In this document: piece by piece, positions 2,182 to 18,965 of the stretch
How positions within the stretch are numbered: the first letter of the stretch is position 1
Layout of the letters: each line of letters starts with the position of its first letter
DNA from: a virus
DNA length: 20,911 bases
Virus record (IMG/VR): IMGVR_UViG_3300041997_000007
Location: 1 to 20,911 of that record
Direction: 5' to 3' (one strand)
The notes under the pieces: model-generated
The model's input: the letters and a program-made list of their open reading frames with translations, nothing else
Told to the model about the DNA's origin: nothing
Databases searched by the model: none
Position numbers and translations under genes: made by a program

Positions 2182-2460
2182 ATGATCGAAGTACGCGCGC
2201 TCGCTTCATTCGAGCACTCAGGAAAGCGGCTACGCGGGGAAAGGTTCTTTGTGATCCCCAAACAAGCGGCACAGTTGGCGGCAAAGGGACTGATCGAGAA
2301 GATTGCGGAGGAAACCGGAAACCCCAAGGTGCCCGCTGGGATCGCGTCGTCTGTATCGCCAGCGGGCCGAGTGTTACCACGGACGACATTGAGCGCATCC
2401 GGCGATGGCGTGAAGCGGAAACGGGGACGGCCCAGAAAGAATCCCGAGCCGTCATTGTAG
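2182..2460 (+). CDS. Small head-associated protein with basic AT-hook-like tail (unshifted product)
   Basis: This 92-aa protein lies directly after the capsid terminator and has a good Shine-Dalgarno (GGAG, 2172-2175) 6 nt before its ATG. The first ~45 residues (MIEVRALASFEHSGKRLRGE, then a stretch with QAAQLAAKGLIEKI) resemble small phage proteins often found next to the major capsid gene; no function is assigned here. The tail ends in KRKRGRPRKNPEPSL, whose RGRPRK core resembles an AT hook. DNA contact inside the head is possible but unproven. The 3' half of the gene overlaps a second frame that encodes a DUF115-like domain, and an in-phase slippery heptamer with a downstream hairpin suggests a fraction of ribosomes shift into it. 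Confidence 0.75.
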   Translation: MIEVRALASFEHSGKRLRGERFFVIPKQAAQLAAKGLIEKIAEETGNPKVPAGIASSVSPAGRVLPRTTLSASGDGVKRKRGRPRKNPEPSL

Positions 2461-2924
2461 TCAACACCAGTTTTAAGCTGGCCCTGTGGGCTGACGCCCT
2501 CTTCGCGATGGACCGGGTTTGGTGGGATCACTACATGGAGGAAGTGAAGCAGACCTTCACCGGAAGCCTGTATTCGCACGGGCATCGGCCCGACGTGAAG
2601 CGGGTGAATGGGGTCTATTTCAAGTCCTCAAACCAGAATAGCGGTGCCGGCGCGGTTGTGCTGGCCGCCGAGTGGGGCGCCAAGGAGATCATTCTGCTGG
2701 GGTATGACTGCCAATTCTCAGGCGGGAAACGACACTGGCACGGGGATCACCCCGCCAAAAACCGGCATGGTAAAGGAATGGGCAATGCTGGCTCTATGAA
2801 TAAGTGGCCCGAACAGTTCAGGAAGGCGCTTCCCTATTTGCGGGGCGCCAAGGTTATCAACGCATCGCGGGAGACGGCCTTGAAGGTCTTTCCCCGGATG
2901 CCACTGGAGGATGTGCTGACGTGA
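2182..2924 (+). CDS. Probable -1 frameshift fusion: small head protein N-terminus plus DUF115-like (glycosyltransferase-type) domain
   Basis: If translation shifts -1 at 2325, the product is 247 aa: 48 residues of the small head protein, then 199 residues from the other frame. The second part has a Rossmann-like pattern resembling DUF115/Maf-type enzymes: CIASGPSV (about 58-65), IVVNTSFKLALWADALFAMD (about 92-111) and NSGAGAVVLAAEWGAKEI followed by ILLGYDCQF (about 153-179). Members of this broad group include sugar-transfer and pterin-pyrophosphokinase-like proteins, so the substrate is unknown. The frame has no ATG, GTG or TTG between 2178 and the conserved core. Its only earlier starts are TTG 2121, TTG 2166 and GTG 2175, and the peptide they would add looks like antisense-quality filler. 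The stop overlaps the next start by 4 nt (GTGA, 2921-2924). Confidence 0.7.
2319..2367 (+). promoter_or_regulatory. Candidate programmed -1 ribosomal frameshift signal (head gene to DUF115-like domain)
   Basis: The heptamer A AAC CCC occupies 2319-2325 in phase with the gene starting at 2182 (codons GGA AAC CCC). A 5-nt spacer (2326-2330) follows, then a perfect 9-bp stem, GCCCGCTGG (2331-2339) with CCAGCGGGC (2359-2367), around a 19-nt loop. After a -1 slip, the Pro tRNA re-pairs fully with CCC and the Asn tRNA is mismatched only at the wobble position. The new frame starts at 2325 and reads straight into the DUF115-like domain. A second in-phase heptamer, A AAG GGA, lies at 2283-2289 and could serve as an alternative site. 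Confidence 0.6.
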
Positions 2925-3259: not shown

Positions 3260-3618
3260 CGACCTTTAGCCAGCACCTGATTCACCGGATTACCTTCCAG
3301 GAGCCGATCGAATCCAAGGACAGCGAAGGGTATCCGACGGTCGAATGGGACAACGTGTGGCTCGATTCGGAGACGGAACTTGCCGATGTGCCGGCTGAGG
3401 TTCTGACTGGCCCGGGCCGTGAATTCCCGCAGTCTGGCCAGATACAGGCTGACATCGCCGCGCGCATCCGCTGCCCGTGGTTCCCTGGCGGAATCAATTC
3501 GGCATGGCGAATTCTGTGGGATGGGTTCGTGTTCAACATTGACGGCATCCCTGACTTGGATGCTACGGGACGTAGGGAGTATCGAATCAAGTGCAAGGCA
3601 GGGGTCAATGACGGATGA
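3256..3618 (+). CDS. Phage head-tail adaptor / head closure protein
   Basis: This 120-aa protein matches the small beta-rich head-tail adaptor family (SPP1 gp16-like): an opening LIHRITFQEPIESKDSEGYP, then VEWDNVWLDSETELADVPA, and an ending FVFNIDGIPDLDATGRREYR. These proteins close the connector channel after DNA packaging. The start chosen is the ATG at 3256, which gives an ATGA overlap with the connector gene; an in-frame GTG at 3244 is possible but less likely. The 3' end overlaps the next gene, whose ATG is at 3608. Confidence 0.82.
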   Translation: MTTFSQHLIHRITFQEPIESKDSEGYPTVEWDNVWLDSETELADVPAEVLTGPGREFPQSGQIQADIAARIRCPWFPGGINSAWRILWDGFVFNIDGIPDLDATGRREYRIKCKAGVNDG

Positions 3619-4330
3619 GTTAGCGGCTAAGGCAGAACCTTTGACAATTGTTACTTTTAAATGGAGCACCCCAGGCTACCGGGCAAATTTCGAGAGCCGG
3701 CACGTCAACATCCTTCGCCGCATGGTGCTTCGTCACTATCCAGACCCGGTGCGGTTTGTTTGCTTTACGGATGATCCTGTTGGCATTGAGCCAAAGATTC
3801 AGACCCATCCGCTGTGGGATGACCACCGGCAGGTTCCCAACCCTACTGGAGGCGGTCGACCCTCTTGCTATGTGCGGCTGAAGCTGTGGGACCCGGCAAT
3901 GCTGGAACTGATAGGCCCGCGGTTCGTCATGCTGGACTTGGACACCATCATCTGCGGAGACCTGCGGCCCATCTTCAACCGTACCGAAGACGTGGTGATG
4001 TGGAAGTCGCCGACCAATGAGTGGCCCTACAACGGGGCGATGTTCATGGCCAACACTGGAGCACGGCCCCAGGTTTGGAATGACTTCGACCCGATCAAGT
4101 CGCCGGCGCTGACCCAGGCCAAGGGCTACCGCGGCAGCGATCAGGCCTGGCTGTCCCACTGCATGGGTCCAAATGAGGCGGTCTGGACGGCGCGCGATGG
4201 GGTGATCTTTCAGAACGATGTGTGGAAGCGCCAGTCCCGCAAGCCGTCTGGTGCTCGGATCGTGTTTACCACCGCAGGACATCCGCCTTGGACAGCTCGC
4301 GCGCCATGGGTGAAGGAGCATTACCGGTGA
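3608..4330 (+). CDS. GT-A type glycosyltransferase-like protein with DxD motif
   Basis: This 240-aa protein opens with a beta strand (LTIVTFKWSTPGYRANF), followed by VRFVCFTDDPVGIEP. It carries a DxD metal/nucleotide-sugar motif, D110-L-D112, within FVMLDLDTIICGDLRPIF, and a GSDQAW motif at 176-181, as in GT8-like enzymes. It probably transfers a sugar from a nucleotide-sugar donor; acceptor and sugar are unknown. No signal peptide or membrane segment is visible, so it should act in the cytoplasm. It starts inside the end of the head-closure gene (11-nt overlap), with AGGGG just upstream, and overlaps the next gene by 4 nt (GTGA). A virion protein is a plausible acceptor, given its place among head and neck genes. 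Confidence 0.78.
   Translation: MTDELAAKAEPLTIVTFKWSTPGYRANFESRHVNILRRMVLRHYPDPVRFVCFTDDPVGIEPKIQTHPLWDDHRQVPNPTGGGRPSCYVRLKLWDPAMLELIGPRFVMLDLDTIICGDLRPIFNRTEDVVMWKSPTNEWPYNGAMFMANTGARPQVWNDFDPIKSPALTQAKGYRGSDQAWLSHCMGPNEAVWTARDGVIFQNDVWKRQSRKPSGARIVFTTAGHPPWTARAPWVKEHYR
4315..4330 (+). repeat. Direct repeat, upstream copy, flanking the GT2-like gene
   Basis: The 16-nt sequence GGAGCATTACCGGTGA is repeated at 4953-4968 as GGAGGCTTACCGGTGA (14 of 16 identical; the last 10 nt are identical). Each copy spans a Shine-Dalgarno, the end of one gene and the GTG start of the next. The pair exactly brackets the GT2-like gene. Confidence 0.6.
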
Positions 4331-4968
4331 TCACCGTCATCACGCCAACCTGCGGGCGTCCCCTTGGGATCGCTTTGGCCGAACGATGGATGGCGCGGCA
4401 GACGGTGAAGCCGGATCGGTGGATCGTGGCGGACGGCGGCGAGACACCTTCCCCGCTGACAATGGGGCAGGAACGGCGCTGGTCGCCCTCTGCGCCCGGC
4501 CCGGCAAACTTCGCGGGCAATGTACTGCGCGCGCTGGAAGGCGTCACAGGGGCTGTGGTGTGCGTGGAAGATGATGATTTCTATGCGGCCGACCACATTG
4601 AGCGCTGCCTAGATGGTTTGGAGAAAGGCGACCACGGCTGCGAATGGCTGCGGTACTGGAATGTGCAGTTCAAGGCGTGGAAGGAAATTCGCAACATCGG
4701 TTCCTCCCTCGCCCAAACCGCGACCCGGGATATTCCCCGTCTGCGTGCTGCCGCTGAGGCTGCGCTTGCGGCTGGGGACTACACGATAGATGGCAGGTTT
4801 TGGGACGGCCGCAAGGCGCGCGGTCCCAAGACCGTGGTCGGGATCAAGGGTCTACCGGGAATCAAAGGGCTGGGAATGGGCCATCGCCCCGGAAAGGGCT
4901 GGCACCCGGACCCCGCTGGCCGGAAGTTGCGGGAGTGGATTGGGACTGACACGGAGGCTTACCGGTGA
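4327..4968 (+). CDS. Family 2-like glycosyltransferase
   Basis: This 213-aa protein opens with ITVITPTCGRPLGIALAERW, the nucleotide-binding start of GT-A family 2 enzymes, then RWIVADGG at 31-38. Its acidic metal-binding motif is EDDD at 81-84 in VVCVEDDDFYAADHIERC. The C-terminal half is shorter than in many GT2 enzymes and has no membrane segment. The start is GTG 4327, with GGAG at 4315-4318 and a GTGA overlap; earlier in-frame ATGs would extend deep into the previous gene. It is likely to modify the same target, or extend the same glycan, as the preceding DxD enzyme. The gene is bracketed by a near-perfect 16-nt direct repeat, which suggests cassette-like gain. Confidence 0.75.
   Translation: MITVITPTCGRPLGIALAERWMARQTVKPDRWIVADGGETPSPLTMGQERRWSPSAPGPANFAGNVLRALEGVTGAVVCVEDDDFYAADHIERCLDGLEKGDHGCEWLRYWNVQFKAWKEIRNIGSSLAQTATRDIPRLRAAAEAALAAGDYTIDGRFWDGRKARGPKTVVGIKGLPGIKGLGMGHRPGKGWHPDPAGRKLREWIGTDTEAYR
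4953..4968 (+). repeat. Direct repeat, downstream copy, flanking the GT2-like gene
   Basis: GGAGGCTTACCGGTGA here matches 4315-4330 at 14 of 16 positions, with TTACCGGTGA identical. It contains the ribosome binding site and the GTGA stop/start overlap for the gp10-like gene that follows. Confidence 0.6.
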
Positions 4969-6505: not shown

Positions 6506-6865
6506 ATGTCTATCAGCGACAAGTTTTTCATTTCGCCCACGCTGCATGAGCGGTTGGTGAAGCTGCCAGATGGCAGTGAACACAAGCTGCATTTCAAGGA
6601 ACTACCAGCATCCGAATTCCGACGCTTCCGAAACGCGGAGCAATCCGAGGATGAGGAAAAGCAGGTAGGCAGCATGGCGATGCTCATCGCGGCAAGTCTG
6701 TGCGAGCCGAACGGTAAACCAGCCATGTCCTACACCAAGGCGCTGCAGTTGACCGCTGCTGCGGCTAACTCGCTGGTGGCCGTGGTGCTGGAAGTAAACG
6801 GATTCTCCGGAAAAAAAGACTCGCCGAGCGTGGAGCAGACTGGTTCCGACACGTCCTCGGCCTAG
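6506..6865 (+). CDS. Tail assembly chaperone, short form (lambda gpG analogue)
   Basis: This 119-aa protein, SISDKFFISPTLHERLVKLP followed by HKLHFKELPASEFRRFRNAE, is typical of the short tail assembly chaperone that coats the tape measure before tube polymerisation. Position between major tail protein and tape measure is diagnostic. The ATG at 6506 is preceded by ACAGGAA. Near the 3' end, at FSGKK, lies a run of seven A residues followed by a strong hairpin; most ribosomes read on to TAG 6863-6865, while some shift to make the long form. The last 15 residues after the slip site are Ser/Thr/Asp-rich and are probably only a tail. Confidence 0.88.
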   Translation: MSISDKFFISPTLHERLVKLPDGSEHKLHFKELPASEFRRFRNAEQSEDEEKQVGSMAMLIAASLCEPNGKPAMSYTKALQLTAAAANSLVAVVLEVNGFSGKKDSPSVEQTGSDTSSA

Positions 6866-7122
6866 CGCTCGGCAAATCCCTGCAAGAAATAGACGCCCTG
6901 CCTGAGCCTGAAATTCAGGCATGGCGCGAGTTCTACCGCATGTTCCCCTTTGATGACTACCACCGGTTCTATCGCCCCGCTGCGATGGTGGCGGTCTCAA
7001 TGGGTGGCGGCAACGTCAAGCCGATTCTGGAATGGCTGCAACCCGATCCAGTGATTGGCGAATTCGATAGCTCCGACCTGCGCACGTTTGCGGCGCTGGG
7101 TATTACTCCACCTAAAGGCTGA
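6506..7122 (+). CDS. Tail assembly chaperone, long frameshifted form (lambda gpGT analogue)
   Basis: A -1 shift at 6817 gives a 205-aa fusion: 104 residues of the short chaperone, then 101 residues from the other frame, beginning RLAERGADWFRHVLGLALGK and including QAWREFYRMFPFDDYHRFY. The second part has no useful start until an internal ATG at 6940, which would cut off half of the recognisable domain, so frameshifting is the natural way to make it. In lambda the G/GT ratio is essential for tail assembly and the T domain binds tube subunits; the same role is inferred here. The stop at 7120-7122 is 3 nt before the tape measure ATG. Confidence 0.88.
6811..6873 (+). promoter_or_regulatory. Programmed -1 ribosomal frameshift signal of the tail chaperone genes
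   Basis: The heptamer A AAA AAA (6811-6817) is in phase with the short-form gene (codons GGA AAA AAA GAC). A 5-nt spacer (6818-6822) is followed by a perfect 8-bp stem, GCCGAGCG (6823-6830) with CGCTCGGC (6866-6873). The zero-frame TAG stop at 6863-6865 lies at the end of the 35-nt loop, directly before the 3' arm. A smaller CCGA/TCGG pairing (6846-6849 with 6857-6860) may form inside the loop. Confidence 0.88.
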
Positions 7123-17438: not shown

Positions 17439-17868
17439 GGGTTGCACCGTCGCAACCTGACAGGCCGGCGTGCTTGTTCGTTTGGTCTCCCGCCTCAGCC
17501 CGCGCTGCGATGGCTGCTGCTTGCTTCTGTGAGCGCACTTCGATCTTGCGACTAATGTCCGCCGCGCTATCATGTAGCCAGTCGATGAAGGGCTGCACCA
17601 AATTGTCTTGAAGTTCGCCATCGTCGGAGTACAGGTTCGCGCCGCTATACGAACACGCCCAGCCAACGCGCCATTCCCGCTCCCCATCCAAGGCGTCCGC
17701 CACATGGGGTGGGGAGCAGAAAGTTTCCAGCGCTTTGTACATAGCCGGATACTCGGCCATATTTTCTCCGATGCGCTCGTCATCGTAAGCATTGCAGGCA
17801 GCCAGTACGTCCGCTTCCGTGATCTTTCGCCCCTCTCCGTGCTGAGCGGCTATTTCGCCGACATTCAT
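17431..17868 (-). CDS. Hypothetical phage protein, 145 aa
   Basis: This protein is not recognised. It contains RKITEADVLAACNAYDDE near the start, a motif style frequent in small phage proteins, then ALDGEREWRVGWACSYSG and a C-terminal helix, ISRKIEVRSQKQAAAIAARA. It starts 4 nt inside the TnpB-like gene (ATGA, 17868-17865) and shares 8 nt with the 48-aa gene downstream. Because it begins exactly at the tnpB stop, any guide-RNA scaffold following tnpB would have to lie inside this coding region. Confidence 0.7.
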   Translation of the reverse strand: MNVGEIAAQHGEGRKITEADVLAACNAYDDERIGENMAEYPAMYKALETFCSPPHVADALDGEREWRVGWACSYSGANLYSDDGELQDNLVQPFIDWLHDSAADISRKIEVRSQKQAAAIAARAEAGDQTNKHAGLSGCDGATHV

Positions 17869-18965
17869 ATCATCACCTTCTGGCGTGATTCGTTCCCGCT
17901 GACGGACACCGATGCCTCGGCGCGACGAAGGATGTTCCGGGCTGCGTTAACATCCCGGTCGTGCGACTCACCACAGTCGGCACACGTCCAATGTCTTACA
18001 TCGAGCATGTCCAGACCTGTAGGCCCACTAAGGCACCCGCAGCCGCTGCATGTTCGTGAGGTGTAGCTTTCATTGACCACTTGAATGCTGCGACCGGCCT
18101 GCTGGCCCTTGTAATGAAGCTGCGTTTTAAGGATGCCCCAGCCGGCGTCATACACGGATTTTGCCATCCGAGTTTTGCCCAATCCGAGACTGCTCACATT
18201 GCCAATGACAATCTTTTGGTACTTGCTCACTATCGTCCGTGAAAACTTGTGCAGCGCATCCCCGCGCTGGCGCTGGGCTTTCCGATGGATTCGCTTTGCT
18301 TGACGCTTATGGCCTCGCCTTTGTGCTGCTGCTATTTTCGGTTCAGCCAGTCGGAAGTGCCTTCCTGCTGCCAGGCGCTCATTATCGGTGGTGACTGCGG
18401 TGTCCTTCAGCCCAAGGTCAATTCCAACTGCTTCCAAAGGGGCGGGATCGTTGGTCTGTTCAATCACAACTGGAACACAGAGCCACCAATCGCCGCACGC
18501 GTCTTGCGCGAAGCATCCGTCTCGCCACCTCATACCTACTAAGCGCTCTGACTCAAAAACCCGAAAAGTCTTGCCCAAGAACCGGAGGCCATTCCCCTCA
18601 TTCCTTAATGTCTTGCCTTTAAACGGAACCCAGCCGAGGGATTTCTTAGATCCACCCGAGCGCCTCCAATTCAGGCGAGCCTTCTTTGCTTTGCTGCGCT
18701 TCAATGCGAACTCGAAATTAACGCAGTTGATTACGTCCGCACCAATCTTATTGAAGAACTTGCTCGATCCCGACGACAGCTTGTTAAGATCATATTTAGA
18801 AAGCCAGATCGGTTTTCCGGAATAACGACGGATAGCCTTCTCGCTGGTTTCGTTTGCCCAATTCCAGACAAAGTTCACTTCTTTGGCGGCGGCATTGAGC
18901 CATGCCGTGCATTCGGGTTTAACCTTTAAGCGGATGGCCTTCGTATGTTTCATCGGAACGCTCAT
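17865..18965 (-). CDS. tnpB: TnpB-like (IS200/IS605 OrfB family) protein with relocated RuvC glutamate
   Basis: This 366-aa protein has the TnpB layout: an N-terminal part with VKPECTAWLNAAAKEVNFVW, RuvC-I GIDLGLKD (Asp183), basic helices (KRQAKRIHRKAQRQRGD), a RuvC-II region IVIGNVSSL, a zinc finger (C306, C309, C328, C331) and RuvC-III HDRDVNAARNI (Asp336/Asp338). Canonical TnpBs have Glu in the VVEDL-type RuvC-II motif; here it is Gly255. Glu299, in VVNESYTSRTC, lies 44 residues later and may replace it, as described for Fanzors and some TnpBs. TnpB proteins are RNA-guided nucleases. The ATG at 18965 is 3 nt after the preceding stop, with GAGGAA upstream; the stop overlaps the next start. 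No TnpA and no obvious IS ends are present, so it appears to be a resident phage gene. Confidence 0.9.
   Translation of the reverse strand: MSVPMKHTKAIRLKVKPECTAWLNAAAKEVNFVWNWANETSEKAIRRYSGKPIWLSKYDLNKLSSGSSKFFNKIGADVINCVNFEFALKRSKAKKARLNWRRSGGSKKSLGWVPFKGKTLRNEGNGLRFLGKTFRVFESERLVGMRWRDGCFAQDACGDWWLCVPVVIEQTNDPAPLEAVGIDLGLKDTAVTTDNERLAAGRHFRLAEPKIAAAQRRGHKRQAKRIHRKAQRQRGDALHKFSRTIVSKYQKIVIGNVSSLGLGKTRMAKSVYDAGWGILKTQLHYKGQQAGRSIQVVNESYTSRTCSGCGCLSGPTGLDMLDVRHWTCADCGESHDRDVNAARNILRRAEASVSVSGNESRQKVMI

Follow-up and report, generated by a model that had tools for sequence, protein, structure and literature searches.

In phage lambda and its relatives, a −1 frameshift close to the end of a small gene in the structural operon turns gpG into the minor fusion product gpGT (PMC5009743). 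Frameshifting also adds a C-terminal domain to a fraction of a structural protein in T7 (10B), in T3 and Lactobacillus phage A2 (Ig-like extensions) and in Listeria phages PSA and A118 (PMC5009743); these extensions, Ig-like or of another non-enzymatic kind, are carried by a major capsid or tail protein. The locus described here resembles lambda gpG/gpGT in having a small zero-frame gene in the structural operon with a predicted −1 shift and minor fusion product, and differs from it in the genes concerned, in the position of the site after the capsid gene and in its C-terminal part, an enzyme-fold domain of ∼200 amino acids. Unlike the T7, T3, A2, PSA and A118 extensions, the module that would be added is a transferase fold, and its recipient is a small neighbour of the capsid protein. 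The mechanism is known, and this is a new case of it: based on comparison of the sequences, we estimate at about 93% the probability that the small protein is fused to the enzyme through conserved, programmed −1 ribosomal frameshifting.

The direct homologues of the two parts in Pseudomonas phage D3, orf6.5 and orf7, have the overlapping arrangement with the heptamer C_CCA_AAG and are annotated as two separate genes, and the P1 homologue, pmgO, stands alone and begins at its own ATG. In the text of open-licence papers we found no published description of this frameshift in D3, or of one involving a sialyltransferase or glycosyltransferase.

A small gene and a startless enzyme frame behind the capsid gene

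The window is the whole 20,911-base stretch of the virus record that was studied, and its own locus (L001) belongs to a head operon comprising a ClpP-type protease, an HK97-type capsid protein, a 92-residue ORF, the −1-frame domain and then head-tail connector proteins. The features are as follows:

48–917: ClpP-type protease, head operon
914–2116, + strand: major capsid protein gene (Phage_capsid, HK97 type; Pfam PF05065, E 1.7e-54), immediately 5′ of the small gene
2182–2460, + strand: zero-frame small protein gene (ATG 2182, stop 2460, 92 aa; phrog_2616/phrog_7993)
2319–2325, + strand: slippery heptamer A_AAC_CCC, which includes the conserved tetramer C_CCC and is in phase with the small gene
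2326–2330, + strand: 5-nt spacer, of equal length in both classes of relatives, −23 and −29 (see below)
2331–2339, + strand: 5′ arm of the predicted stimulatory stem, GCCCGCTGG, from folding and from covariation over 49 loci
2359–2367, + strand: 3′ arm of that stem, CCAGCGGGC, which also encodes A-S-G of the conserved IASGPS motif
2325–2924, + strand: −1-frame PHROG 4603 domain with a Maf/Cst-like glycosyltransferase fold, ∼199 aa, lacking a start codon of its own
2325–2460, + strand: dual-coded overlap of the zero-frame tail and the start of the enzyme domain

A first-pass annotation of this DNA had proposed the small ORF, heptamer, spacer and stem at these positions; every coordinate was correct on rechecking, as was the predicted size of the fusion (48 + 199 = 247 aa). 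Past a stop at 2082 the enzyme frame stays open to 2924, and the only ATG, GTG or TTG codons before the enzyme core (the three start codons that were counted systematically) are TTG 2121, TTG 2166 and GTG 2175, which bears out the earlier claim that no such codon lies between 2178 and the core.

Elsewhere in the window, positions 6506–7122 hold a tail assembly chaperone G/GT pair, with an A-rich run (GGAAAAAAAGAC) near the end of G and a second, −1 frame that opens at 6769; this is the usual first frameshift of such phages. Two more glycosyltransferase-like ORFs, which overlap each other, lie in the head-tail operon at 3419–4968 (phrog_1962; weak Glycos_transf_2 match), so that three sugar-transferase-like genes, the PHROG 4603 domain included, stand close together. 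A TnpB-like transposase gene occupies 17868–18965 on the minus strand within this phage record (phrog_506, E 3e-63).

Scans of IMG/VR, GTDB genomes and INPHARED yielded 126 distinct loci, that of the window included, as the main set. A further scan added 13 entries, some of them from contigs already sampled, bringing the collection to 109 overlap and 30 non-overlap loci; the window was set against 138 relatives. In the main set, the enzyme frame overlaps a small ORF in a frame that requires a −1 shift at 100 of the 126 loci. At 82 of these 100 the enzyme frame is devoid of any ATG, GTG or TTG, and the other 18 have scattered, mostly distant starts only. All 26 loci without the overlap have their own start, and none lacks both the overlap and a start; the 13 further loci (9 overlap, 4 not) fit the same pattern, such that an ordinary start is present at all 30 non-overlap loci. 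Between the slip site and the core, a start codon is found at 2 of 71 loci, versus 27 expected. The two arrangements also differ in their surroundings: where enough upstream sequence is available, a capsid homologue precedes 93 of 95 overlap loci, usually by ∼190–290 nt before the core, versus 3 of 26 non-overlap loci.

Some of these results concern outcomes that the first-pass annotation had named as telling against a frameshift. Relatives with a normal start near the core do exist, but nearly all of them are without the overlapping small gene. The relatives rule out a sequencing error within CCCC, since error could not explain one frame relation common to 109 loci; an exact-sequence scan for another copy of this phage found none.

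Slip site, stem-loop and selection on both frames

Signal statistics were collected on 78 non-redundant overlap loci. C_CCN occurs in the small frame at −23 or −29 from the core at 69 of them (71 if two neighbouring positions are included), and elsewhere in the small gene at a background rate of 1.5% per codon; the 6-nt difference between the two positions corresponds to a loop indel. Because selecting C_CCN rows makes the leading C trivially invariant, the test was repeated with the stem's Trp codon as the anchor of the alignment, independently of the choice of slip site. A Pro codon is then found at the predicted site at 67 of 74 loci. It is preceded by C in 66 of the 67 (background 28%, p 3e-33) and is CCU or CCC in 62 (background 40%, p 2e-18), while CCG is absent (0/67) despite being the Pro codon that these genes use most. 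CCA at the site stands mostly within C_CCA_AAG (D3, L005, L099, L131). Several of the seven loci without Pro show another shifty site, A_AAG, A_AAA and T_TTG among them, and there are relatives that use A_AAA_AAG (L162/163/168), T_TTT, or a C_CCT further upstream. An in-phase slippery sequence, as in programmed −1 ribosomal frameshifting, is present both in the window (A_AAC_CCC) and in relatives, and many relatives have the tetramer C_CCY as their signal in place of a full heptamer.

Measurements in E. coli found the tetramers C_CC.U and C_CC.C to be shifty and C_CCA and C_CCG barely so, and the best heptamer was C_CC.A_AA.G (PMC4066793). The codon choice at the site, as read from the sequences, matches these slip preferences. 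Judging by the measured tetramers, slippage at C_CCY is suggested to be low; at the C_CCA_AAG of D3 it is possibly high.

An alignment of homologues had been put forward as a check on the frameshift; in it the slip site, spacer and stem are conserved and the amino acid encoded just before the site varies, ranging across a dozen different residues among relatives. At seven loci (L046, L088, L113, L117, L118, L121 and L128) a stop codon in the enzyme frame abuts the slip codon on its 5′ side, so that the shift cannot lie further upstream. An internal Shine-Dalgarno stimulator was considered and rejected: GGAGG-like motifs 6–21 nt upstream of the site are only mildly enriched over those further upstream (GGAGG 5 vs 1).

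In the window the two arms of the stem pair perfectly over 9 bp, as first described, and the RNA fold of 2326–2380 has an energy of −23.8 kcal/mol (z −2.1). In relatives the stem is 11 bp long, with slip+8 to +18 paired to core+21 to +11, and pairing is high in this register alone (74% over 13 positions; the next best register reaches 55%). Across 49 loci of equal length, 87% of cells are paired, compensatory changes exceed those in all 500 shuffles and in every slid control, and one pair is seen variously as G-C, C-G, G-U and A-U. The folding z score at the site has a median of −2.8 and is ∼0 in the flanks and in non-overlap loci. A structure beginning 5–8 nt after the slip site, as is characteristic of such signals, is therefore present, here with a 5-nt spacer. 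Default RNAalifold on the full 49-row alignment did not return the stem; with ribosum scoring it was returned in both length classes once the CCA-type and two odd rows were excluded. The CCA loci have weaker stems (7.2 vs 9.6 pairs), and the D3 site by itself folds no better than its shuffles (z −0.3). The Trp codon in the 5′ arm may owe its conservation to the protein in addition to the RNA.

Both frames are under coding selection, with the switch between them at the slip site and no independent start for the second. Among related pairs, not all of them independent, substitutions 5′ of the slip site fall at small-frame codon positions 1/2/3 in numbers of 85/82/273, those after the overlap fall at enzyme-frame positions in numbers of 176/138/744, and the rate within the overlap is about half that of the flanks. 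At a Leu codon where CTG would stop the zero frame, CTG is never used in overlap loci and is the commonest choice in non-overlap loci; this avoidance indicates that the zero-frame tail is kept.

The two domains and their natural variants

The model of the small protein is folded over residues 1–41 (pLDDT ∼92 for residues 1–40) and is followed by a disordered basic tail (pLDDT 54–60). Since the fold is restricted to residues 1–41 and the slip is at codon 48, slippage would exchange the tail only. The end of the zero-frame tail in the window (KRKRGRPRKNPEPSL, 2420–2457) encodes an AT-hook-like basic KRGRPRK, and a GRP/GR-type motif is found at the tail end in 27 of 109 relatives. DUF7210 (PF23843) matches 11 of 43 relatives at E up to 0.01 (best 8e-6), and does not match the small protein of the window. 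A fold search with the small domain returned uncharacterised phage proteins, DUF7210 members among them, that indicate no function. Its designation as a head protein is putative, following from the placement of its gene after the capsid gene. A mixed alignment of small-protein and enzyme rows was poor and was left out of the results.

The enzyme domain matches the PHROG 4603 profile over nearly its whole length (positions 1–173 of 178, E 1.8e-47) and contains the conserved motifs SGPS, N-SG and HWHGDH. The earlier description of the domain as 'DUF115-like' holds at the level of fold and not of sequence: the match to PF01973 (MptE-like, the former DUF115) has an E value of 0.013 and scores 15.7 bits against a curated cut-off of 34.6, making that family a fold relative only. 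A search of PDB sequences with the domain found no relative, and relatives came from fold comparison alone. The AlphaFold model (pLDDT 88.8, pTM 0.88) gave Z scores (VIA) of 14.8 over 176 residues to the Maf flagellin glycosyltransferase (5mu5), 11.8 to Cst-I and 10.8 to Cst-II (both GT42), with unrelated rows at ∼7. As modelled, the domain shares a Rossmann-like fold with Maf and Cst; sequence identity to them is only 13–18% and sugar transfer by the phage domain is putative, although glycosyltransferase activity of the predicted enzyme is plausible. We infer that it would transfer a nonulosonic-acid-like sugar, perhaps to virion proteins. Production by frameshifting is not known for any cellular homologue. 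The first strand of the model is the segment directly after the junction, and no internal start could therefore supply that strand.

Free-standing homologues in PAJU2 (ORF010; L036 1471–2040) and Eowyn (L038 1477–2049) are annotated as structural proteins, an annotation that provides a lead toward virion association. At another locus (L027 3447–4603) the PHROG 4603 domain is found twice in tandem, overlapping, after the connector genes, each copy with its own start.

Natural variants of the overlap arrangement include L129 and L022. In L129, directly behind the capsid gene, the small domain and enzyme form a single open frame; stops close the alternative frame, and hence this is no simple indel artefact. 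In L022 the two genes are separate and the enzyme has its own ATG, so that fusion is not obligatory there. In a tree of 111 domains, in which the deep branches are poorly resolved, L129, L022, L020 and L027 fall among overlap forms. By this nesting, the frameshift arrangement is of long standing and its replacement took place more than once, on several occasions.

Proposed mechanism, rival readings and meaning

In the mechanism that we propose, ribosomes would translate the small gene just 3′ of the capsid gene, and the stem-loop 5 nt downstream would stall them at C_CCY (A_AAC_CCC in the window). Most would read on and complete the small protein with its disordered basic tail. A minority would slip back by one base, with both the slippage in vivo and its rarity being presumed, and would join the shared N-terminal domain to the Maf/Cst-like glycosyltransferase-fold domain, giving the 247-residue product in the window. 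The small domain may then direct the enzyme to the head or its site of assembly.

An ordinary gene overlap, with the enzyme starting independently at a weak or non-standard upstream codon such as GTG 2175 or TTG 2121, could draw on the three candidates in the window and on some start in the open stretch of 18 of the 100 overlap loci. Those positions are not conserved, however, the window's candidates precede the small gene's own ATG, and the remaining 82 loci offer none; the stops that abut the slip codon at seven loci, and substitutions that obey only the small-gene frame 5′ of the site, make this reading very improbable. That the RNA polymerase rather than the ribosome slips at the C run seems to us scarcely credible. 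CCCC in the window and the A-rich run in L162/163/168 would suit transcriptional slippage, but most sites have C runs of only three or four, which are short for polymerase slippage, and a conserved stem 5 nt downstream, together with the preference for C_CCY in codon phase, is in keeping with a ribosomal event.

What the frameshift is for is a separate matter. It could be an expression device only, which keeps the enzyme low and gives the small domain no targeting role; the free-standing homologues in P1 and PAJU2 and the unfused neighbours in L022 point this way, while the hard fusion L129 retained the small domain despite its closed alternative frame, the overlap arrangement extends across most of the tree and the small gene lies beside the capsid gene at 93 of 95 loci. 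We regard this as a real possibility, at well under even odds. Alternatively, the programmed frameshift might, in a widespread group of phages, set a fixed small number of glycosyltransferases that the small domain would tether to capsid or procapsid, with the head-borne enzyme either adding sugars to virion proteins as particles assemble or working on the host when the phage enters; this proposal is tentative, and we think it somewhat unlikely as it stands.

The conserved recoding event seems to have escaped notice in many phages, D3 included. With its annotated start ∼30 codons into the conserved domain, D3 orf7 (L033 1600–2058) loses the first strand and the SGPS loop; in other D3-like records the start lies ∼48 codons in. 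Enzymes are annotated from ∼30 or 48 codons inside the domain in D3, FBPa47, 5399, phPA-G, D14Q and D14C, and late also in Psp6 and S20; such annotation costs the enzyme gene its first strand and nucleotide-loop motif. None of these eight records has a joined feature, and proteomic searches would consequently miss the fusion. With this family an enzyme-fold domain joins the phage modules known to be added by frameshifting, and the weak tetramer C_CCY is the family's main slip site; glycosylation of the virion or capsid by a head-linked enzyme becomes directly testable in a laboratory phage.
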